A stretch of 64,000 nt of DNA from Lewinella sp. LCG006 (GTDB lineage: Bacteria > Bacteroidota > Bacteroidia > Chitinophagales > Saprospiraceae), in NCBI RefSeq assembly GCF_040784935.1, contig NZ_CP160680.1, forward strand, positions 4,310,501-4,374,500, given 5' to 3'. The notes below the pieces were generated by a model, which saw only the letters and a program-made list of their open reading frames with translations, made no database searches and was not told the origin of the DNA. Shown here piece by piece: positions 6,162 through 28,430 of the stretch. Within the stretch, counting starts at the first letter, position 1. Each line of letters starts with the position of its first letter. Made by a program: the position numbers and the translations under genes.

Positions 6162-9100
6162 ATGCCTAGTAATTGCAACGATATCCGGAACGACTACCGC
6201 CTCAGCCACGGCGGAACGGCCCAGAGTGAGCGGCAGCCGCTGGCGCAGCAGCCGGACTACGTACAAGTGGATGAAAAAACCTTCGCCGATTGGATTGTCT
6301 TTGTTCGGGATTATGCGCGTTTTGTTCAATTTTATAATAGTGCAGACACCCCGGAGGGCGATTGGACCGATTTTTGGACGGCTAATCCTGCGATCATATT
6401 GGCTAATCTTGCCGCCGCTCCTATCGATGATTTCCGAACCGCCAGCAGGCAATTGTTTATTGAACTGCAAAAACTGGAATACCAGGACGGTAGTGCCGCC
6501 AGTAACTTGCATTTGCAACAACACCTCAATCAACTCTTTGACCTTTTTACCAACTTAAGCTGGCAGCTCGATCGCCATATACGTCTACTACCACAGGGCT
6601 TGCCCATCAAGGAGGTACTCCGGAACCGGGTGAATAAATACCTGTCTCCTGCCCTGCAAAAGTGGATCGCCTGGCACAAACACGCTCAAGCAAGTTTGTT
6701 GGATAATGGGCAGACGACATTGAGTCCGTCACTCGCTGGAATCCGTGTCTTGGGAGCAAATTTGCTGCCCACGGAAGATTTTTACACGGCACCAGTTCCT
6801 GAGACTTTGTTCACCGATGATTGGTTACCAAATGGCGCTACTGATTGGGCGACTTACTTAGCTGGTATACCAGCGGATGCTACCATTTTTGGAACAGATC
6901 CTACGGTAGCCGCTTCTATCAGTTTTGCCGTCCGGCATTACTTTTTTACCAGCGTTTACGAGCAATTTCTTCAAGCTTTTGTTCTGGCCATCAAGGAAGC
7001 GGAAAAGGCTTTGGAATCATTATTGTACAGTTGGAACAAGCACGAACCTCACTTTGCGCTGTTTCTGGCGTTTTTGCGGCTATTGGCAAAAGAGCAAGCT
7101 TATCTCAATACCCTGACGGACCGCCACCTTCGGTTTTACTACGAGCGGGTTTTGCGTTTGAAATTCGCACCAGGAAAACCACCCAAAACATTTCTTACGG
7201 TGGAGTTGGCCAAACAGGTAGACCAACATTTGCTAGCAGCAGGTGTAGCCTTTAAGGCAGGAAAAGATGCCACCGGGCAGGAAATTATCTTTGCCGCAAC
7301 GGAAGACTTTGTTGCTAATAAAGCTAAGGTGACGGACTTGAGAAGCATTTTCAAAGCACCAAATAATGTAGCAGAATACCGCTTCGGTGACCCTGAACGC
7401 CCCATCTATAAAACCCGCGACCGGAACCGTTATTTTGCAGCTCCCGTAAGCAATTCTGCAGATGGTTTAGGGGAAGAAGAGCTGACCAGTGCCGATGGCC
7501 GTTGGCATCCTTTCGGGAATAAAGAAGTTGGAGATGATGCGACGACCTGGGACATAAAAATGCCCACTGCTCGGATCGGTTTTGCGATAGCTTCCAATTA
7601 CCTGTATCTGAAACAAGGGAGCCGTACCATCATCCTGAAGTTTAACGGGAGTGGCATGAGTGCGCTGGAGGGTGTCAAGTTTCGACTAAGCCTAACGACC
7701 GAAAAAGGCTGGTATGAATGTACGATTGCCGTTGATCAAGATCCTGGAGATGGCCGCTACCAATTGAAGTGGACCATTGATGGCGATGAACCCGCTATTT
7801 TGCCGTACCAGGCGAAAATTCACGGTGGCGCTTTTCAAACGGATTTTCCGTTGCTGAAGGCGGAGTTGGTACACGAAAACAATGTAGAATTTCCATACCA
7901 GGCTATTAAAAACCTAAAAGCGGCCAGCCTTTCCTTGACGGTAAATGTAACGGGGAAACGCGATATGGCCCTGAGCGGTAGTACTGGCCCTCTGGATGCC
8001 AGCAAGCCTTTTCATCCCTTCGGGCCAGCACCAGGTGCTGGTTCCGTGTTTATTCTTGGCGATAAAGAAGTTTTTCAGAAAGCATCCGTGATCAGCCTTA
8101 AGCTGGTTTGGAAGGAGAAAAAAGGGACTAACTATTATCAAGATACAGTTAGTGGATCATCAGCGAGTACCCAACTAAGCACTTTGGTGAGTGGAGCCTG
8201 GTCGGACACAAGTAACAAAGATATCCTGCCCAGTACCACGACCACCGCTGTTCAACTCTCGGCGGATAATGGCAACACTATTGCGCTAAGCACTAACAGC
8301 ATCATTACCCCTGATTTTTCCAATAATCAACCCTACTCCAATCAGGCGACCAGCGGTTTTCTCCGGTTCTCCCTGAGTGGTGATTGGGGGCATGCGAAAT
8401 ACCCGCTTGCGCTGGCGGCTTACGCCAAGGGTAACGGAACCACCCCGGCGCTACCCAAGCCCTTATATGATCCCCAGTTGTTGGATGTAGAGTTGGATTA
8501 CACGGCTACGCAAGAGATCACCTTGAGTAATCCAAATACTTACAATGGCTTGACGGCAGCATTTTTTCATTTGCATCCTTTTGGGGAAGCTGAAAAACAA
8601 CCAAGTTCTGGACCAACCGCTTTGCTGCCCTTGTTGGTGAGCCAGTACAATACTTCTACCCCTGATGGCCCTGTGAATAATGTAGGGAAGGATGGCGGAG
8701 AATGGTTGATCGGGGTAGAAGGATTGCAGGCGCCACAGGTGCTTTCGCTACTCATTCAGGTAGCAGCAGGCACTGCTGACCCTTTGCTGGCGAAGCCCAA
8801 ACCTCACCTGCGCTGGTGGTACCTGCGCCAAAACGAATGGGTACCTTTTACCGAAAGGGAGGTAAGTGATGGTACGCAGGGCTTGTTGCAAAGTGGGCTG
8901 GTACGGCTAAGTATTCCTGCGGATATTAATGAAGACAACACCCTCCTGCCTGCCGGTAAAGCCTGGTTGTGTGCCACTGTTGAGACGGCGGTAGATGCGG
9001 TCAATCAAGTGGTTGGGGTATTTGCCCAGGGGATGGCGGTAGCCATGATCGATAACCAGAATGATCCTCAGTTAGGGGCTTTGCCCTTGCCCACAGGTAC

Positions 9101-19058: not shown

Positions 19059-22000
19059 ATGAAAACGAAAACGACTCAGGTCCCAAAAGCCAAACCTGGT
19101 AAGCCAGCAAGGCAATCTTCCTTTTTTCAGACTAAAAAGAGCGATGGTGCTTTTTTTAAGGCGCAGCCTAAAGTGAACGTAGGGAAACCTGATAGTCGTT
19201 TTGAAACCGAAGCCGATCAGATGGCGGAAAGAGCGGTCAATAGTGAAGGCACCTCAAAGCCTTTGTTTGGCCAGATTTCGCCCTTGGTACAACGTAAGGA
19301 GCAAGAAGAAAATCTCCAGGCCAAAGCCACTGAGGAGGAAGAGGTGATGCAGGCAATGATGGAGGAAGAGGACCCCGTACAGCGCCAGCGGGACACGGAA
19401 GAGGAAGAGGTACAGGCGAAAATGGAGGAGGAAGAGCAGGTGCAAAGCAAGGAAGAGGAAGACGTACAACGTAAAGTAGACGAGGAGCAACTGCAAATGC
19501 AAGAAGAGGAGGAAGAAGCGGTGCAGGCAAAAGAAGAAGAGGAAGCTGTTCAACAAAAGGAAGAAGAGGAGGAAGTGCAAGCTAAGCTTGCTCCCCGCCC
19601 GCTGTTGCACCGAGGCCTGGATTTTGCGAATGCTATCCGAATGCGTCGGGGAAAGGGGCGGCCGCTAGATACAGATACGCGACAAAAAATGGAAGGTGCC
19701 TTTGAGGCTGATTTTAGTGGCGTACGCATTCACACCGACCAGGATGCTGTTCAGCTAAATCGTGCTTTGGGAGCGCAGGCCTTTACTACCGGGAAAGATG
19801 TTTTCTTCAATGAGGGAAAATACGATCCGTCGCGGCGAAAAGGCCAATTGTTGCTCGCTCATGAACTTACCCACACTGTACAACAGGGAGCAGTGCCAGA
19901 GCGCACCTCGGATACGCCCGAGCCCGCAGGAGAATCCAGCACCGATACCGCTACATTGACAACGGATGCAGAGGCTTTGTTGCCAATAACCATTCCTGAT
20001 ACGGATACGGCTGTGGATACCAGCACCGGCGAGACAGCAGCAGGTGCTACCCCTGCTGTAGGTGAAGAGGAAGCTGCCGCTACCCCTGCACCCGTCGAAG
20101 AAATACCAATTCCTCGAACCCCGGGTGAAGACCCTAATTTTCAGGCCCTTAAGCAGAAGACAAAGAAAACGGCAGCGGGCCAGAAGGATGTTCCTACGGC
20201 TAAGAGTTTAACCGATAACGCAGAGGAAGCCGCCCCGCTAGCTGGCAATGAACAAAAAGGGCAGGCCCAGGAGGACCAGGTCGCTGAAATGGAGGAGCAG
20301 GAACCGCAGCTGTTTGACGCGGAGACTTTTAAGAAGTTACTCCTAGATCAGATTGTAAAAATTCTACCAAAAAGCGAAGAAGAAGCGGATAAGTTCCCCG
20401 GTAGCGGTAAGATGGACCAAGTCAAAGATAGTGCCGGGCAGAAGGTCGCGAGTGAGAAGGAAAAATCAGGTGGAGCGATAAAGACAGCTACGGCCAAGGA
20501 ACCAGATCCTTCCGCTGTAGAAGCTCGGCCAGTTGCAGATTTGGTCTCACCCACGGTAGGAGCTGCCCCAAAATCCCTGCGCGCAGGAAATACGACTCCT
20601 CCGGCGCGGAATAGCTCCGAGGTTAGCCAGCCGCTTGTTGATGATGGTAAGCGCATGGATGACGAAATGGCCACCAATGAAGTGACCGAGGAGCAACTGG
20701 CGATATCTGAAGAACCTAGTTTTCTTACCGCCCTTGATTCCAAAAAGACTGCGAAAGCCAACATCACTGAGGCTCCCGTTCAATTCCGTCAGGAAGAGCA
20801 AACGGTTCGCGAAAAGCATCAACAGCACGCCGAAAACAAGGGAGAGGATACCGTGTCGGGTATGTTTGATGGTCGCCAGCATCTTTTGGCGAAAGCTACT
20901 GACGAACAAAAGAATACCTCGAAAGACAACACATCTGCGAGAGAGAACATCAGTAGAGAAATTGACAAAATCTTTCTCCTGACCCAAATTGATGTGGAGA
21001 AGGTGCTCGGGCCAGCTGATGGTAGCAGAGAAGGTACTATTGATGAGGGCGTAAATACCAGGTTTGAACTGGCCGCCAACTACGCTACGCTCCGTTTTGA
21101 AAGCTTTATCAGGCGTAAAATGGATGCATACAAACGCGAGCGTTACGGCTCGTGGTTTGATCCTCGTGGATGGGGAAAACGCATCAAGGACACCGTTGTA
21201 GGGATGCCCGATGAGGTCAATAAATTCTACGAGGAGGCGCGCGAGCAGTATATCGCAGATATGGATGTTGCGCTTACGGGAATAGCCCGCTACATTGCTA
21301 CCGAATTGGCCAAAGTCAAGCAACGTATATCCAAAGGCCGTAAAGAAGTCAAAGATTTTGTCGATGGTCTACCCACAAGCCAACAAAAACTGGCTACCGC
21401 TGCCGTAGAAAAAATTGAAGACCAATTCAGTCAACTGGACAGTGCCGTGACGAGCAAGCAGGATGCACTCATTGATAGCATAGCCCAGAAGTACAAAGAA
21501 AGCCTGGAGGCCGTGGATGCGCGCATTGAGGAAATGAAAGCGGCCAACCGGGGGCTGGTGGACAAAGCACTGGACGCGATTAAGGGCGTTATTGAGACCA
21601 TCAAGAAATTGAAGCAGCTGATTATGGATTTGCTGGCTGCCATTCAATCATTGATTGGTGTGATAATGGCCGATCCGATTGGGTTCATGAAGACCCTTTT
21701 TGCGGGAATTAAGGCTGGTTTTGACAACTTTGTCGCCAATATTCAAAAACACCTCATTGCGGGCTTGTTCAAGTGGCTGACGGGCTCCCTGGGGCCGATG
21801 GGAATCACCGTGCCGGAAAACATCTTTAGCCTGTCGGGAATCTTTGATCTTATCATGCAGGTGCTGGGGCTAACTTGGGAGTTTGTCCGAAAAAAGATGG
21901 TAAAGCTCATCACAGAACCCGTGGTGAAAGCGGTAGAGACGGGTTTTACGGTGGTCAAAAAAATAAAGGAAAAAGGTATAATGGGGCTCTGGGAAGAGGT

Positions 22001-23675
22001 GCAGGAGCAGTTTGGTGACCTGAAAGAAACGGTGATCGAGGCGGTTCGAAATATGATCATCACCCAGGTCATTCAGGCGGGTATCAAGTGGCTGCTGAGC
22101 TTACTGATTCCCGGAGCGGGTTTCATTAAGGCAATCATAGCCATTAAAGATTTTATCGTCTTCTTTGTAGAGTCAGCTATTGCTTTGATTCCTACGTTGA
22201 TCGAAGCAATCAAGGCTGCAGCTGCCAAGAATTTTGCCAGAATCAGCTTGGCAGTGGAGAATGGTTTGTCTACACTGATCCCCTTGGTGATTGGCTTACT
22301 AGCTAAGCTATTGGGTATTTCTGATCTGGTACATAAAGTTCAAAAAATCATCAAGAATATCCGCAAACGCATCGATCGGGCTATCGATAAGATTATCCTG
22401 AAGGCTAAAGCCTGGGCGAAGAAGTTTGTCAAAGGCGCTAAGAAGACAGCCAAGAAGGTGAAAGATAAACTGGTGCAGTGGTGGAAGGCGAAAAAGAAGT
22501 TTAAAGGCGGTGATGGGAAACAACATACGCTTTACTTTGAGCAGAAAGGGCAGACAGCGAAGATGATGGTGGCCAGTGATATTCAGACGTTTGCCGACTT
22601 TATGAAGCACATCAAATCTGTAGCAAAAACTGATGATCAGAAAAAGCTTTTGAAACAGGCAGAAGCAAAAGCTACGGAGGCTGATAAAATTATTCAGCGC
22701 AAGACGGGAGCTGCTACAGATGCGGCTACCAAGAAAAATCAGGAGAAAAAGCAAAAAGACTTGCAGGTGAAACTCAATGAGCTGAGCCCCATCACGGCAC
22801 AAATATTCGGCTTCGCGGATGGTGAGCAGCCTGCTACAGAAGTTGATTTTGACAGCACCACCAAGGCCGGAGCAACGGTGGCAACGGTCATGACCGCTAC
22901 GGTACTTTCCAAGGTGGCTCGGAAAAGTGGTGACGCCGGTTCTTCACCAACGCAAGAGAAGCATCTCCTTTTTGATAAATTACTATTAAGGAAAGAAGGT
23001 GCTCGGTCGTACTATATCCGAGGGCACATGCTCAATGATAATATTCATGGGCCGGGGAAATGGTACAACATGACGCCATTGTCTCAAAAGGGAAACAAGG
23101 CGCACTTGCAATCAGCAGAAAACGCAGTGAAACGAGCGGTACAATCCGGAGGAGTGGTAAGTTACAAGGTGGAAGCCAATTACGGCAGAGGTGATCTGAG
23201 TGTTACCAAAGCCCAACTCAATAAGCAAGGCATAGATGAATCCATGCACGATGATATCATGACCATCCGCTCTGCCGAACAGCATGTCCCTACCAAATTA
23301 ACCGTAGCAGCCACCTTGCTGGTAAAAGATGATAAAGGGAAATTTACCAAAAAATCCAAGGTGCTGTTGAGCAGTAAATCCATCACTAATGAGGTGGATA
23401 CGAATTTGAAGAATTATGAGGTGGGGAAAGGGGAAGCTAAGGTTACACAAAGCCTGGTAAATAGTAGTGCGGAGAAGATCGCATCCAACACCAATATTCC
23501 TTTAAATGAGGTAATAATAATTCAAAAGTTAGCACAAGGCATTGATGATCTGAGTAGATATGATCAAATAGCAGAAGCAATCAACCAAGACATTACGCTT
23601 AGTAGTGCTAAAAAACGACGGCTAAACAAAATGGTGGTAAAGATGCAGGAAGCACGTAGTATAAAATTAAATTAG
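19059..23675 (+). CDS. DUF4157 (eCIS core domain) cargo/effector with C-terminal nuclease-like domain
   Basis: 1538 aa. Residues 1-80 are basic and polar. About 90-185 are extremely Glu-rich with repeated VQAKxEEE units. About 198-275 are the DUF4157 domain (FEADFSGVRIHTDQDAVQLN) ending in LLAHELTHTVQQG, an HExxH zinc-protease-like motif near residue 268. About 300-560 are low-complexity Ala/Glu/Thr; 560-850 are helical; 850-1095 hold several hydrophobic segments that could insert in membranes; 1095-1150 are very Lys-rich. Around 1311-1365 are YYIRGHMLND, NMTPLSQKGNKAHLQSAEN, spaced like the R-G-H...N-x-T-P-Q...N...E pattern of non-specific beta-beta-alpha-metal nucleases. DUF4157 proteins are known eCIS cargo; toxicity by the C-terminal domain is inferred. 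No signal peptide. Confidence 0.85.
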   Translation: MKTKTTQVPKAKPGKPARQSSFFQTKKSDGAFFKAQPKVNVGKPDSRFETEADQMAERAVNSEGTSKPLFGQISPLVQRKEQEENLQAKATEEEEVMQAMMEEEDPVQRQRDTEEEEVQAKMEEEEQVQSKEEEDVQRKVDEEQLQMQEEEEEAVQAKEEEEAVQQKEEEEEVQAKLAPRPLLHRGLDFANAIRMRRGKGRPLDTDTRQKMEGAFEADFSGVRIHTDQDAVQLNRALGAQAFTTGKDVFFNEGKYDPSRRKGQLLLAHELTHTVQQGAVPERTSDTPEPAGESSTDTATLTTDAEALLPITIPDTDTAVDTSTGETAAGATPAVGEEEAAATPAPVEEIPIPRTPGEDPNFQALKQKTKKTAAGQKDVPTAKSLTDNAEEAAPLAGNEQKGQAQEDQVAEMEEQEPQLFDAETFKKLLLDQIVKILPKSEEEADKFPGSGKMDQVKDSAGQKVASEKEKSGGAIKTATAKEPDPSAVEARPVADLVSPTVGAAPKSLRAGNTTPPARNSSEVSQPLVDDGKRMDDEMATNEVTEEQLAISEEPSFLTALDSKKTAKANITEAPVQFRQEEQTVREKHQQHAENKGEDTVSGMFDGRQHLLAKATDEQKNTSKDNTSARENISREIDKIFLLTQIDVEKVLGPADGSREGTIDEGVNTRFELAANYATLRFESFIRRKMDAYKRERYGSWFDPRGWGKRIKDTVVGMPDEVNKFYEEAREQYIADMDVALTGIARYIATELAKVKQRISKGRKEVKDFVDGLPTSQQKLATAAVEKIEDQFSQLDSAVTSKQDALIDSIAQKYKESLEAVDARIEEMKAANRGLVDKALDAIKGVIETIKKLKQLIMDLLAAIQSLIGVIMADPIGFMKTLFAGIKAGFDNFVANIQKHLIAGLFKWLTGSLGPMGITVPENIFSLSGIFDLIMQVLGLTWEFVRKKMVKLITEPVVKAVETGFTVVKKIKEKGIMGLWEEVQEQFGDLKETVIEAVRNMIITQVIQAGIKWLLSLLIPGAGFIKAIIAIKDFIVFFVESAIALIPTLIEAIKAAAAKNFARISLAVENGLSTLIPLVIGLLAKLLGISDLVHKVQKIIKNIRKRIDRAIDKIILKAKAWAKKFVKGAKKTAKKVKDKLVQWWKAKKKFKGGDGKQHTLYFEQKGQTAKMMVASDIQTFADFMKHIKSVAKTDDQKKLLKQAEAKATEADKIIQRKTGAATDAATKKNQEKKQKDLQVKLNELSPITAQIFGFADGEQPATEVDFDSTTKAGATVATVMTATVLSKVARKSGDAGSSPTQEKHLLFDKLLLRKEGARSYYIRGHMLNDNIHGPGKWYNMTPLSQKGNKAHLQSAENAVKRAVQSGGVVSYKVEANYGRGDLSVTKAQLNKQGIDESMHDDIMTIRSAEQHVPTKLTVAATLLVKDDKGKFTKKSKVLLSSKSITNEVDTNLKNYEVGKGEAKVTQSLVNSSAEKIASNTNIPLNEVIIIQKLAQGIDDLSRYDQIAEAINQDITLSSAKKRRLNKMVVKMQEARSIKLN

Positions 23676-24345: not shown

Positions 24346-25668
24346 ATGAAAAGGATTTCAATTACCAATTTAGAACATGCTATTCGCTATTTGGAGGAGC
24401 GTATTTCTCAGCGGCTTACCGCTCCCGAGAAAATTGATTTCCCTGACTTTGATATCTCAGATGCTAGTGATCCTTTTTTTCGTACAGTAGCAGAGATGAA
24501 ACTTTCCCTAGAAGAGTTTCTTATTCTTCTCATCGCCTTGATGCCGCATGTTTATCCTGATTTCTTTGATCGAGTTGTTGCTAAAAATATAACTAAGGAC
24601 AATGATTTGCCTGCCTTTGGAGGCATCAAAACTGCGGAGCAACGCACCATGATGCCGACGGTATCCACGGCACTGTTTGTATTGGCAGGTGATGATATCC
24701 AAAAACGGATGGATTTATTGACGCTCTTTGATGATCAGCATCCTTTTTACCAACAAAGCATCCTTCATCTCGAACAACCGCGAATGGGGGAGTCGATGTT
24801 AAATCGGCGAATATTATTAGATACAGAGTATATAGAGCTTTTTACACAAGGGTATATATCGCCACCGAGATTCAGTTCTTCCTTTCCTGCTCAATTGCTC
24901 CAAACGGAGCAAGAGTGGACCGATTTGGTATTGCCACCTCCCGTTTTAGATCGCATTGAAGAAATTAAAACCTGGGTAGAACAGCATTCCACCCTGATGG
25001 AGGATTGGGGCATGAAGCGGGTGCTAAAACCTGGATACCGAGCTTTGTTTCATGGGCCGCCAGGAACGGGTAAGACGCTTACGGCTAGTTTGTTAGGGCG
25101 ATATACAGGCAAGGATGTTTTTCGGATAGATCTGTCCGCCGTCGTTTCTAAATACATAGGAGAAACGGAGAAAAACCTCTCCCAGCTATTTGATAAAGCT
25201 CAAAACAAAAATTGGATCTTGTTTTTTGATGAAGCTGATGCTTTGTTTGGTAAGCGTACGGGGGTAAAAGATGCTCATGATCGGTATGCTAATCAAGAAG
25301 TCTCTTATCTTTTGCAAAGGGTGGAAGAATTTCCAGGCTTAATAATCCTCGCATCTAACCTTAAAAGTAACCTTGATGAGGCTTTCTTGCGCCGCTTTAA
25401 TACCATTATCCATTTTCCCATGCCGGATGTTGAGGAGCGTCTGCAATTATGGAAAAAAGCGTTCCCTGAGGCAGTCACTTTAGCGGTTGATTTGGTAGAA
25501 GTAGCAGCCCGTTATGAACTCGCTGGTGGTAGCATCATCAATGTAGTGCAATACGCTTGCTTGAAAAGCCTGCAACGCGCTAGTAAAGAGATTAGAATGG
25601 AAGATGTTCTGCAAGGAATTCGCAGAGAAATAGAAAAGGATGGACGCCTGTTTAAGTCTTTAGTGTAA
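24346..25668 (+). CDS. AAA+ ATPase of the eCIS (Afp15-like)
   Basis: 440 aa. The N-terminal about 200 residues are a variable helical domain. Walker A is HGPPGTGKTLTASLLG (P-loop from about residue 237), Walker B is WILFFDEADALFGKRTG (about 290-305), and the sensor/arginine-finger region is NLDEAFLRRFNTIIHFPMP. This ATPase is a universal eCIS component, probably acting in assembly or cargo loading. It lies 15 bp after the SUKH-like gene and is the last gene of the operon in this window. No clear rho-independent terminator follows; the next feature is the opposing tRNA-like array. Confidence 0.93.
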   Translation: MKRISITNLEHAIRYLEERISQRLTAPEKIDFPDFDISDASDPFFRTVAEMKLSLEEFLILLIALMPHVYPDFFDRVVAKNITKDNDLPAFGGIKTAEQRTMMPTVSTALFVLAGDDIQKRMDLLTLFDDQHPFYQQSILHLEQPRMGESMLNRRILLDTEYIELFTQGYISPPRFSSSFPAQLLQTEQEWTDLVLPPPVLDRIEEIKTWVEQHSTLMEDWGMKRVLKPGYRALFHGPPGTGKTLTASLLGRYTGKDVFRIDLSAVVSKYIGETEKNLSQLFDKAQNKNWILFFDEADALFGKRTGVKDAHDRYANQEVSYLLQRVEEFPGLIILASNLKSNLDEAFLRRFNTIIHFPMPDVEERLQLWKKAFPEAVTLAVDLVEVAARYELAGGSIINVVQYACLKSLQRASKEIRMEDVLQGIRREIEKDGRLFKSLV

Positions 25669-25702
25669 TAGGATGGTACTGAGTACCAAGTACAAAAAAA
25701 AG

Positions 25703-25844
25703 CTGTGAGAGAAGGATTCGAACCTTCACAGGGTGCTTAGCTACTGAACAAAAGCAATTTTGTGGTCAACCCATATCCAGTGTTTATCGCATGATCCCCA
25801 CCCCCGAGACAAGAGGGCATGGCTGCCTATTTCATCACCTCACA
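25703..25844 (-). tRNA. tRNA-like gene, copy 1 (class II, GUC anticodon loop, divergent long variable arm)
   Basis: Read on the minus strand from 25844 down: acceptor 5' TGTGAGG pairs with 3' TCTCACA (one G-T wobble); discriminator G; no encoded CCA. The D arm is ATG-AAATAGGCAGC-CAT with the GG pair. The anticodon arm is CCCTC-TTGTCTC-GGGGG (GUC if read canonically), and the T arm is GAAGG-TTCGAAT-CCTTC. Between anticodon and T arms lie about 70 nt closed by GGGG/CCCT pairing, including the hairpin ACAAAA-TTGC-TTTTGT inside ACTGGA/TTCAGT. This insert differs from copies 2-4 although the tRNA core is kept. Eight T residues follow the 3' end on the transcribed strand. Decoding function is uncertain because position 37 is a pyrimidine. 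Confidence 0.6.
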
Positions 25845-26010
25845 ATGTTGAAGTCGGAGGTCAGAGGTGGGAAGTCGGAAGTGTTTAGGTTCCAAATTCC
25901 GCGGTCTTTATCCGACGATTTTGAAAATCGGAGAGAAAACTTAAAGCTGAAGTACTTTTACTTCGGACTTCCGCTTTCCTCCCGATAGCTATCGGGACCG
26001 ACTTTGAAAG

Positions 26011-26162
26011 CTGTGAGGGAAGGATTCGAACCTTCACGGGGCAGTTAGAGAAAATCAGGACGCTTAAAAAGCCCGAAGCTCGTTAAGAGCCATAATTTCT
26101 TTTGTGCTGTACTCCCCACCCCCGAGACAAGAGGGCATGGCTGCCAGTTTCATCACCTCACA
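26011..26162 (-). tRNA. tRNA-like gene, copy 2 (class II, GUC anticodon loop, ~80-nt variable arm)
   Basis: On the minus strand the perfect 7-bp acceptor is TGTGAGG/CCTCACA, then discriminator G. The D arm is ATG-AAACTGGCAGC-CAT, the anticodon arm CCCTC-TTGTCTC-GGGGG and the T arm GAAGG-TTCGAAT-CCTTC. The variable region is closed by GGGG/CCCC and contains GCTC-TTAAC-GAGC and GCTT...AAGC hairpins. Total length of 152 nt is far above the ~85-90 nt of normal class II tRNAs. It is identical in design to copies 3 and 4. T-arm and acceptor match tRNA rules exactly, so chance resemblance is unlikely; whether it is charged or used by ribosomes cannot be seen. Confidence 0.62.
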
Positions 26163-26328
26163 ATGTTGAAGTCGGAGTTCGGAAGTGGGAAGTTGGAAGT
26201 GTTTAGATTCCAAATTCCGCGGTCTTTATCCGACGATTTTGAAAATCGGAGAGAAAACTTAAAGCTGAAGTACTTTTACTTCGGACTTCCGCTTTCCTCC
26301 CGATAGCTATCGGGACCGACTTTGAAAG

Positions 26329-26480
26329 CTGTGAGGGAAGGATTCGAACCTTCACGGGGCAGTTAGAGAAAATCAGGACGCTTAAAAAGCCCGAAGCTCG
26401 TTAAGAGCCATAATTTCTTTTGTGCTGTACTCCCCACCCCCGAGACAAGAGGGCATGGCTGCCAGTTTCATCACCTCACA
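26329..26480 (-). tRNA. tRNA-like gene, copy 3 (same type as copy 2)
   Basis: Essentially identical to the 26011-26162 copy over its full length, including acceptor, D, anticodon and T arms and the expanded variable arm. It lies exactly 318 bp from copy 2. The upstream flank on the minus strand is a GTACCAAGTAC repeat block instead of the longer spacer used elsewhere, so the duplication boundary coincides with the tRNA-like ends. Confidence 0.62.
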
Positions 26481-26542
26481 ATGATTAAGGTACTTAGTAC
26501 CAAGTACACAGTACCAAGTACACAGTACCAAGTACCTTAAAG

Positions 26543-26694
26543 CTGTGAGGGAAGGATTCGAACCTTCACGGGGCAGTTAGAGAAAATCAGGACGCTTAAA
26601 AAGCCCGAAGCTCGTTAAGAGCCATAATTTCTTTTGTACTGTACTCCCCACCCCCGAGACAAGAGGGCATGGCTGCCAGTTTCATCACCTCACA
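26543..26694 (-). tRNA. tRNA-like gene, copy 4 (promoter-proximal)
   Basis: Same structure as copies 2 and 3, with one A/G difference in the variable-arm insert near 26638. It is nearest to the candidate minus-strand promoter at 26873-26904 and would be the first transcribed. All four copies keep a pairing acceptor stem and an intact T loop, which argues for selection or very recent duplication. Confidence 0.62.
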
Positions 26695-26872
26695 ATGTTG
26701 AAGTCGGAGGTCAGAGGTGGGAAGTCGGAAGTGTTTAGGTTCCAAATTCCGCGGTCTTTATCCGACGATTTTGAAAATCGGAGAGAAAAGTTGAAGCTGA
26801 AGTACTTTTACTTCGGACTTCCGATTTCCCATTTCCGACTTTGAAATCAGTTGCTTTCAACTGATGATGTGA

Positions 26873-26904
26873 CAAATTTAAAGCAAGGGTTTATTTGTTG
26901 CAAA
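26873..26904 (-). promoter_or_regulatory. Bacteroidota-type promoter for the tRNA-like array
   Basis: On the minus strand TTTG (26901-26904) is followed after 20 nt by TAAATTTG (26873-26880), an exact match to the Bacteroidota -33 TTG / -7 TAnnTTTG consensus. Transcription would start near 26866 and run through copies 4 to 1. A terminator for the opposite-flank gene (27045-28430, also minus) lies just upstream at 26970-27012, so the array appears to be a separate transcription unit. Confidence 0.55.
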
Positions 26905-27044: not shown

Positions 27045-28430
27045 TTAATTTACCGCAGCTTGCATTAAATAAGCGCAAATAAGTGCGCCGTAGGTCCCCA
27101 AAGCATAGCCCAATACCGCCATTAGTACACCTACGGGTGCTAAGGCTGGACTAAAGGCAGAGGCAACGATAGGCGCGGAAGCAGCTCCACCCACATTAGC
27201 TTGCGAACCTACAGCTACGAAGAAGAAAGGAGCTTTGATGAGCCAGGCTACAAACAAGAGCAGGATGACGTGAACGAGCATCCAGATGGCTCCGATGGCA
27301 AAAAGGCCAAGATTATTGATGATATCACCGAGTGCCATGTGCATCCCGATGGTGGCTACGAGGATGTAGATGAAAATACTGCCCCATTGGGAGGCTCCAA
27401 CACCTTCCAGTTCGCGGAATTTGGTGAACGACAAGACCAGACCTAGTGTTGTGGAGATAACAACGAGCCAGAAAAAACCACTCAGTAAAGAGTTGAGACC
27501 AGCCGCCTTGAGGCTCTCTTCAAAAGGTTCGAGCCAGCTGGTGATGAGATCTGCGCCCCAATGAGAGAGAGCCACTCCTCCGAAGCCTACGGCTAGTAAA
27601 ATATAAAGGTCGTTGGTGGAAGGGATTTTCTTGATTTTATCCTGGTATTCCGCAACCTTTTTTTCCAAGTCCTTGATGGCAGTGTTATCCGCTTTGAGTC
27701 GAGCGTCGATTCGGTCGGAGATTTTGGCACCATATAATAGGAAGCCCATCCAGATGTTGGCGACTACAATGTCTACCACCACCATAGAGGCAAAGACACT
27801 ACCTTTGACTTCGAAGATTTCTTTCATGGCCGTTTGGTTGGCACCACCACCAATCCAGCTACCCGCAATGGTACTCAACCCACGCCATAGCTCGTCGGGA
27901 GAAAAGCCTACCAGGTTAGGAAATAGATAAGTGAGGATGATAAGCGCAATCGGTCCGCCAATAATAATACCTACGGTAGCAGTGAGGAACATAATGATGG
28001 CCTTGGACCCCAATCGCATGATCCCTTTCAGGTCGATGCTTAAACATAACCAGATCAAACTCGCAGGTAACAGGTACCGGCTGGCCATAAAATAAAGCTT
28101 GGAACCTCCTTTGTATTGTTTGTAAACAGAAGGGTCAATGTCTGCTTGTCCAAATAGTTTTTCAATTTCGGCAACGGATGCTTTGGCTGGTAGCTTGATC
28201 CCTAATTCTTTAGCCAAGTCGTAGATGCCAGGCTCAAACCAATCGTAGGCAATAAGGTTAAGAGGCCAGTGCAAAATGGCTGGAATGAAATAACAGAGCA
28301 AAATAGCTGGAACAAAAGTATAGAATCGTTTCCAGGCTTTCTTGTCGCTGCTGGCGGTAGTAAAGACAAAGGCCAGTGCCAGCATCAAAATACCAAAAAC
28401 AATGGCATCATTCGTAAAAAATGGCTTCAT
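27045..28430 (-). CDS. DUF819 family integral membrane protein
   Basis: 461 aa with about ten hydrophobic segments. The start MKPFFTNDAIVFGILMLALA, the motif AGSWIGGGANQTAMKEIF in the middle, and the C-terminal GSQANVGGAASAPIVASAFS are characteristic of the DUF819 (YjcL-like) family. The two halves each contain a Gly-rich S-x-x-G-G-x-A/N motif, suggesting an inverted-repeat transporter fold. Substrate is unknown; peptide-related or organic anion transport has been suggested for relatives but nothing here decides it. It is transcribed alone, with a strong terminator downstream. Confidence 0.88.
   Translation of the reverse strand: MKPFFTNDAIVFGILMLALAFVFTTASSDKKAWKRFYTFVPAILLCYFIPAILHWPLNLIAYDWFEPGIYDLAKELGIKLPAKASVAEIEKLFGQADIDPSVYKQYKGGSKLYFMASRYLLPASLIWLCLSIDLKGIMRLGSKAIIMFLTATVGIIIGGPIALIILTYLFPNLVGFSPDELWRGLSTIAGSWIGGGANQTAMKEIFEVKGSVFASMVVVDIVVANIWMGFLLYGAKISDRIDARLKADNTAIKDLEKKVAEYQDKIKKIPSTNDLYILLAVGFGGVALSHWGADLITSWLEPFEESLKAAGLNSLLSGFFWLVVISTTLGLVLSFTKFRELEGVGASQWGSIFIYILVATIGMHMALGDIINNLGLFAIGAIWMLVHVILLLFVAWLIKAPFFFVAVGSQANVGGAASAPIVASAFSPALAPVGVLMAVLGYALGTYGALICAYLMQAAVN

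Follow-up and report, generated by a model that had tools for sequence, protein, structure and literature searches.

The window analysed here is a stretch of 64,000 nucleotides (nt) from Lewinella sp. LCG006 (contig NZ_CP160680.1, positions 4,310,501–4,374,500 of the forward strand), a member of the Saprospiraceae whose 7.5 Mb genome is contained in a single contig. Between the AAA ATPase gene of an injection-system cluster (24346–25668) and a DUF819 gene (27045–28430), the window carries on its minus strand a tandem array of four genes for a transfer RNA (tRNA)-like RNA with a greatly enlarged variable arm. The copies and their principal parts are as follows:

26542–26694, minus strand: tRNA-like RNA copy 4, 153 nt including G73 and C74, first in transcription order
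26662–26656, minus strand: anticodon-like loop of copy 4, UUGUCUC
26645–26574, minus strand: variable-arm insert of copy 4, 72 nt
26328–26480, minus strand: tRNA-like RNA copy 3, 153 nt, insert type as in copies 2 and 4
26010–26162, minus strand: tRNA-like RNA copy 2, 153 nt, insert type as in copies 3 and 4
25702–25844, minus strand: tRNA-like RNA copy 1, 143 nt, last in transcription order
25812–25806, minus strand: anticodon-like loop of copy 1, UUGUCUC
25795–25734, minus strand: insert of copy 1, 62 nt, of the commoner type, with GGUUGACCAC at 25771–25762

Every copy has a 7-bp acceptor stem, a 3-bp D stem, a 5-bp anticodon stem, a 4-bp variable-arm stem and a 5-bp T stem, with GG in the D loop and TTCGAAT in the T loop. 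The acceptor stem is formed by TGTGAGG pairing with either CCTCACA or TCTCACA, the T arm reads GAAGG-UUCGAAU-CCUUC, the anticodon-like loop is UUGUCUC, and the 4-bp variable-arm stem carries a structured insert of 62 nt in copy 1 and 72 nt in copies 2–4. The lengths of 142–152 nt given in a preliminary description of the array hold once C74 is left out; with this base included, the copies measure 143, 153, 153 and 153 nt.

Judged from aligned relatives, the body of the molecule is a cloverleaf under base-pair selection, which bears out the proposed identification as a genuine tRNA-like RNA whose variable arms are enlarged. A first covariance model was built from eight rows. Its first 58 matches (56 of them distinct, with the copies of the window counted in) show standard pairing in 1316 of 1316 cells over the 24 pairs, and 49 changes affect both sides of a pair, whereas sliding one side reduces pairing to 49–68%. 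The 97 distinct rows from named genomes pair in 99.4% of 2265 cells with 191 both-side changes (60–71% when slid), and the 69 distinct viral rows, which contain three matches of ordinary tRNA length and one divergent copy, pair in 99.5% of 1621 cells with 242 both-side changes (52–61% when slid). Pairs are thus kept in 99–100% of cells across the three alignments with many compensatory changes, in counts that lean toward the model's own structure, to which the alignments were fitted, and the relatives show conservation where random decay of pairing would have spoken against a working RNA. The weakest element is the outer pair of the D stem, broken in 10 of 95 rows of the named-genome alignment.

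The enlarged arm was compared in bacterial copies. There are 188 distinct bacterial rows, 173 of which were accepted by a parser that demands T at position 1, GGYAGM, YNNUCNY and TTCGA; the insert was parsed in 162 of these and left unparsed in 11. The arm begins with the 4-bp stem, followed usually by four bases (141/162), a covarying 3-bp stem (fully paired in 135/162), an internal loop of RAYAAA facing CUAA and a hairpin region of 5–115 nt. The motif GGUUGACCAC or a close variant of it is present in 103 of the 162 hairpins; in these copies the arm helix is paired in 98–103 cases at each of seven successive positions, by several pair types, and it ends in a nearly constant U-G and then A-U. 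Shifted by one, the same helix pairs in only 15–25 of 103, one position excepted (85). When seven full inserts from the same genus were compared, a hairpin was found to fold at the same place in each. The earlier observation that copies 2–4 share one insert while copy 1 has a different one is accurate as far as it goes, but on these parsed inserts both kinds are versions of one arm plan, the copy 1 kind with GGUUGACCAC being the commoner.

Existing tools pass over the array. ARAGORN reports 0 tRNA genes in the window, Rfam 15 places no family there at gathering score and a lax Rfam search of the array returned sub-threshold matches only. A search of the host genome with RF00005 lists 38 tRNAs above the Rfam cut-off, including an ordinary tRNA-Asp, from which the array is absent; the genome has a separate transfer-messenger RNA (tmRNA). 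In three relatives, an Rfam search at E ≤ 1 likewise left the position of the RNA without a match, and in the open-access literature, a body of text mostly without subscription papers, no description of such an RNA was found. The judgement that the array matches no described family therefore stands, and it is near certain from the sequence comparisons that the four genes are members of a previously unlisted RNA family. The family was probably overlooked because gene finders disallow inserts of such size.

The search of other Saprospiraceae for the same core that was suggested at the outset proved productive: run over 398 genomes of this family, the first model found matches in 253 at E ≤ 0.1 and in 202 at E ≤ 1e-20, with up to six per genome. 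The three other genomes of the genus that were compared all have matches (3/3). A second covariance model was run over 395 genomes of the phylum Bacteroidota and matched 40 of them, in seven families, at E ≤ 1e-20. At E ≤ 0.01 it matched 390 of the 395, and the matches below the stricter group, which were not inspected singly, are 77–87 nt long with at most about 68 bits and fit ordinary class II tRNAs by length and score; the phylum count is accordingly restricted to E ≤ 1e-20. An exact pattern scan of named genomes hit at least 120 stretches. The 80 listed titles include Chitinophaga, Niabella, Dyadobacter, Spirosoma, Emticicia, Algoriphagus, Cyclobacterium and Echinicola, three of the 80 are Flavobacteriales or Cellulophaga, and all are presumably Bacteroidota, a judgement made by name with two lineages looked up. 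A plasmid search with one query gave no match.

The RNA is also carried by viruses. A 636-kb record of an uncultured phage matches copy 1 over its full length at 75.5%, and a pattern scan found at least 120 viral contigs, with one exact pattern match in each of the 120 stretches; a second scan with a 3'-half pattern, which was probably too strict, found nothing. When 81 viral loci (80 listed plus the phage record) were put to the model, 80 were found to carry the RNA at E ≤ 1e-10, and in the remaining locus it is cut off by the edge of the stretch. Among ten proteins from eight viral stretches, portal, terminase and DNA polymerase matches were found for two each and an RNA ligase match for one; two more had different matches and one had none. 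In one viral contig (L303) a second, divergent match of the RNA model, 149 nt long and scoring 50 bits, lies at 7682–7830.

At least one tRNA is present in 71 of the 120 viral stretches, on the same strand within 300 bases in 56 and within 12 bases in 17, and 13 also hold a tRNA-Asp, counts in which near-duplicates were kept; tmRNA occurs in some RNA-bearing viral stretches as well. In 28 of the 56, the closest tRNA on the RNA's own strand is a tRNA-Ser located upstream, at a distance of 4 bases in ten loci that were read (such as L281, L285, L294 and L352). Many viral copies (L280–L359 and others) have directly after GGUUGACCAC a palindrome of varying sequence, such as GCTTGCAAGC, GCCGGCCGGC or TTGTGCACAA. 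Palindromes of at least 8 are found in 40 of 58 distinct viral stretches, against 8.5% of shuffles that preserve base composition only, and in 24 of 37 after removal of near-duplicates. Bacterial copies show weak or no enrichment by the same comparison (21/151 versus 8.2% of shuffles, 27/100 versus 18.6% and 10/56 versus 11.8%). The viral palindrome could be a site where two RNA molecules pair. Related genomes are not independent, so the enrichment counts for palindromes and viral tRNAs, like those for promoters and terminators below, are not probabilities.

The constant bases of the molecule place it among tRNAs while setting it apart from those of its host. Since the parser demands constants itself, these were read from unparsed alignments, and since the pattern scans fix YTGTCTCG, the loop figures were taken from 100 distinct rows found by the model alone, a few of them partial or weak. 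In these rows U1-A72 and G2-C71 are each present in 98/98, G73 in 100/100 and an encoded C74 in 98/99; GUC and C38 are each kept in 98/99, the single exception being a 19.5-bit match (L090), and position 37 is a pyrimidine in 97/99. The 188 bacterial rows agree (U1-A72 181/182, G73 185/186, C74 184/185, GUC 184/185, pyrimidine 37 183/185), with one row among those parsed or examined having A at position 1 and one having TTCAA in the T loop. So do the 64 parsed viral copies (U1-A72 62, G2-C71 64, G73 63; 2 of 66 distinct copies unparsed). Among the 38 ordinary tRNAs of the host, C74 is encoded in 38/38, CCA in 1 and U1-A72 in none, and position 37 is a purine in 38/38. At the 3' end the array genes thus behave as host tRNA genes do, suggesting that CCA maturation is shared, but they depart from host tRNAs at 1–72 and 37.

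Its amino-acid identity is of mixed character. By alignment score, the nearest host tRNA to the body of copy 4 is tRNA-Leu(UAG), with 53/72 identical (tRNA-Ser(GCU) has 54/72 but a lower score), and the nearest to the body of copy 1 is tRNA-Leu(GAG), with 52/72. The junction between the arm and the T stem consists of two unpaired bases (GU in 141/173), by eye as in host tRNA-Leu, whereas host tRNA-Ser has, also by eye, a one-base junction before the T stem. Bacterial leucyl-tRNA synthetase (LeuRS) requires A73, and in place of the leucine identity features, A73 and a leucine anticodon, the RNA has G73 and GUC. For yeast, this need of LeuRS for A73 is stated in the accessible part of PMC8629427. 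The strong aspartate determinants given in the accessible part of PMC9976931, namely G73, G34, U35, C36 and C38, are all five kept; the same text adds G1-C72 and G10 for bacterial tRNA-Asp.

Comparison with known systems sharpens this picture. The array RNA resembles class II tRNA-Leu in its D arm, variable-arm closing and (by eye) two-base junction, and differs from it in having G73 rather than A73, GUC, U1-A72, a pyrimidine at 37 and a variable arm of several times the length. With bacterial tRNA-Asp it shares G73, G34, U35, C36, C38, G2-C71 and the encoded C74, but it has a class II body, U1-A72 for G1-C72, G10 only rarely, a pyrimidine at 37 and the giant arm. The nematode nev-tRNAs likewise combine class II bodies with the anticodons of class I tRNAs, and nev-tRNA-Gly reads a Gly codon as leucine, according to the accessible text of PMC4033280; the array RNA has a far longer arm with its own plan and is carried by bacteria and viruses. 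Among natural tRNAs with non-standard cloverleaves are the allo-tRNAs and further non-canonical kinds (PMC7609411; see also PMC7590224), yet allo-tRNAs differ in acceptor/T-stem make-up such as 9/3, whereas the array RNA has the standard 7 + 5 bp and an altered variable arm. Like tmRNA, it places a tRNA-like end on a longer RNA; unlike tmRNA, it keeps a complete anticodon arm, and no conserved reading frame was seen in it. The idea that it encodes a tag peptide was dropped, because the frame ATG GCT CTT AAC ... TAA of copies 2–4 is missing from copy 1 and the host has a normal tmRNA.

The signals around the array are consistent with its being a transcription unit of its own, as had been proposed:

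26873–26903, minus strand: promoter-like site of Bacteroidota type, TTG-N20-TAAATTTG, upstream of copy 4
25694–25701, minus strand: eight consecutive T immediately following copy 1, a possible end of the transcription unit, with no separate hairpin seen
26163–26327, minus strand: spacer between copies 3 and 2, near-identical to the spacer at 25845–26009

Pattern clustering of bacterial loci gave 184 distinct arrays. Of the 173 with sufficient upstream sequence, 93 have TTG-N17-22-TAnnTTTG no more than 250 bases upstream (control windows: 63 of 3680), and in 70 of these 93 the promoter-like site ends 25–75 bases ahead of the first copy; by eye, sites similar to that of the window are readable in two same-genus genomes. 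Terminator-like hairpins follow 41 of 183 arrays, against 22 of 3680 controls. Single GGUUGACCAC-type copies are the commonest arrangement (108/184). Mixed arrays, in which GGUUGACCAC-type and motif-less copies stand together, number 26 of 184, and in 20 of these 26 the GGUUGACCAC type is last, as in the window, which suggests two working types. The spacers at 25845–26009, 26163–26327, 26481–26541 and 26695–26830 are repeated DNA of the TTCCGACTTCCCACCTC and GTACTTGGTAC types.

The injection-system setting noted at first sight is genuine in that the AAA gene of the extracellular contractile injection system (eCIS) adjoins the array, but the link is local to the genus: this gene adjoins the RNA in 3 of 43 bacterial loci, all of one genus, and the notion of an eCIS-linked RNA was dropped on that count. 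Within 7.5 kb, the neighbours that recur in the 43 loci are a GH113-like gene (12), DUF819 (9), pantoate-beta-alanine ligase (8) and ribosomal protein L9 (4), every name having been taken from a single representative. Since neighbours vary between loci, the gene for the RNA appears to stand on its own in the chromosome. Elsewhere in the window, a 1538-aa protein (19059–23675) has an eCIS core domain and, toward its C-terminal side, a match to DNA/RNA non-specific endonuclease that falls just below the curated cut-off; it is perhaps an injected effector.

We tentatively favour, as the foremost of several readings and at somewhat less than an even chance, that the array encodes a tRNA-like RNA which is expressed, CCA-tailed and charged with aspartate, works outside normal Asp decoding and has an arm that docks a partner. 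The RNA would likely be cut out by the ordinary tRNA enzymes, receive its CA end and fold into an L shape. The chances are about even that it is then charged with aspartate by the normal aspartyl-tRNA synthetase (AspRS), because the five strong aspartate determinants are kept in a leucine-type body. The host genome encodes three PF00152 proteins, which we take to be the number expected from AspRS and the synthetases for asparagine (AsnRS) and lysine (LysRS), and an extra synthetase as partner was rejected on this count. On balance the charged molecule would not serve as an ordinary Asp-decoding tRNA, in view of the pyrimidine at 37, U1-A72, the bulky arm and the presence of a normal tRNA-Asp; the doubt first raised about normal Asp decoding is thereby strengthened. 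The arm, through its RAYAAA/CUAA internal loop and hairpin, likely docks a protein or RNA partner, which would direct the molecule to a translation-linked task that phages need too.

Several observations weigh against this proposal. Of the additional tRNA-Asp features, G1-C72 is replaced by U1-A72 (98/98) and G10 is present in only 6/99. The putative tie to translation is drawn solely from the viral tRNA clusters and the tRNA features, and 49 of the 120 viral stretches have no tRNA. No constant protein-gene neighbour was found among the 43 bacterial loci. As many as 196 of the 398 family genomes are without a match at E ≤ 1e-20, so the RNA is not needed everywhere, and a same-genus copy (L032) with about 29 extra bases inside the T loop indicates that some copies may decay.

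The principal competing view is that the RNA stays uncharged and mimics a tRNA, acting as a decoy or sponge that captures an anticodon nuclease, a tRNA-modifying enzyme or a synthetase, while its arm adds stability or binds a partner; phages would carry it to survive tRNA-cleaving defences and host arrays would tune its dose. This we consider rather unlikely, though it accounts for a good deal: the anticodon loop, the GG of the D loop and the T loop hardly vary while other parts drift, the pyrimidine at 37 and U1-A72 distinguish the RNA from all 38 host tRNAs, many hosts carry tandem copies (the 120 viral stretches show one exact pattern match each), and one viral copy has an RNA ligase gene about 2.4 kb away. 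A plain decoy would, however, have no obvious need to keep C74 and the full set of five strong aspartate determinants, the conserved arm plan exceeds what a decoy requires, and the 43 bacterial loci show no constant gene neighbour, although no search was aimed at nucleases.

A true second tRNA-Asp isoacceptor, decoding GAC and GAU with its giant variable arm tolerated, is improbable. It would explain why GUC, C38, G73 and G2-C71 are kept in practically all model-alone copies and why viral copies often lie near ordinary tRNAs, but G1-C72 is absent, the pyrimidine at 37 contrasts with the invariable purine of the host tRNAs, and a tRNA-Asp is already at hand in 13 of the 120 viral stretches and in the host genome. 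Less probable again is charging with serine, in which seryl-tRNA synthetase (SerRS) would recognise the long arm and G73, and serine would be delivered to Asp codons or to a non-ribosomal reaction. The RNA keeps G73, G2-C71 and mostly a purine at position 4, which are bacterial serine identity elements in the accessible part of PMC9976931, and an upstream tRNA-Ser is the nearest in half of the viral stretches with a close same-strand tRNA (28/56); against this, C72 is absent, C11-G24 is rare and the two-base junction is that of host tRNA-Leu rather than tRNA-Ser. That the genes are decayed or duplicated tRNA fragments, such as attachment-site remnants, spread with the surrounding repeats is extremely improbable, and the idea was dropped: the spacers are indeed repeated DNA and one relative has extra T-loop bases, but the pair counts with their compensatory changes, the promoter and terminator enrichment and the spread over several families and viruses contradict it.

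The reading we favour can be extended, with more reserve, to the suggestion that Bacteroidota and their phages may own, besides tRNA and tmRNA, a further tRNA-shaped class: an adaptor charged with aspartate that does not read codons in the usual manner, binds a partner through its giant arm and, in the phage versions, pairs with another copy through the palindromic loop. It leads to a sharp prediction, namely that a class II body of leucine type, with a pyrimidine at 37, should be charged with aspartate, and the carriers include cultured genera such as Chitinophaga and Dyadobacter. An RNA carried by about half of the sampled Saprospiraceae genomes, by members of several further Bacteroidota families and by many viral contigs has apparently been missed so far. 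If the reading is correct, it would extend the range of uses to which tRNAs are put and explain part of what phages gain from their tRNA clusters.
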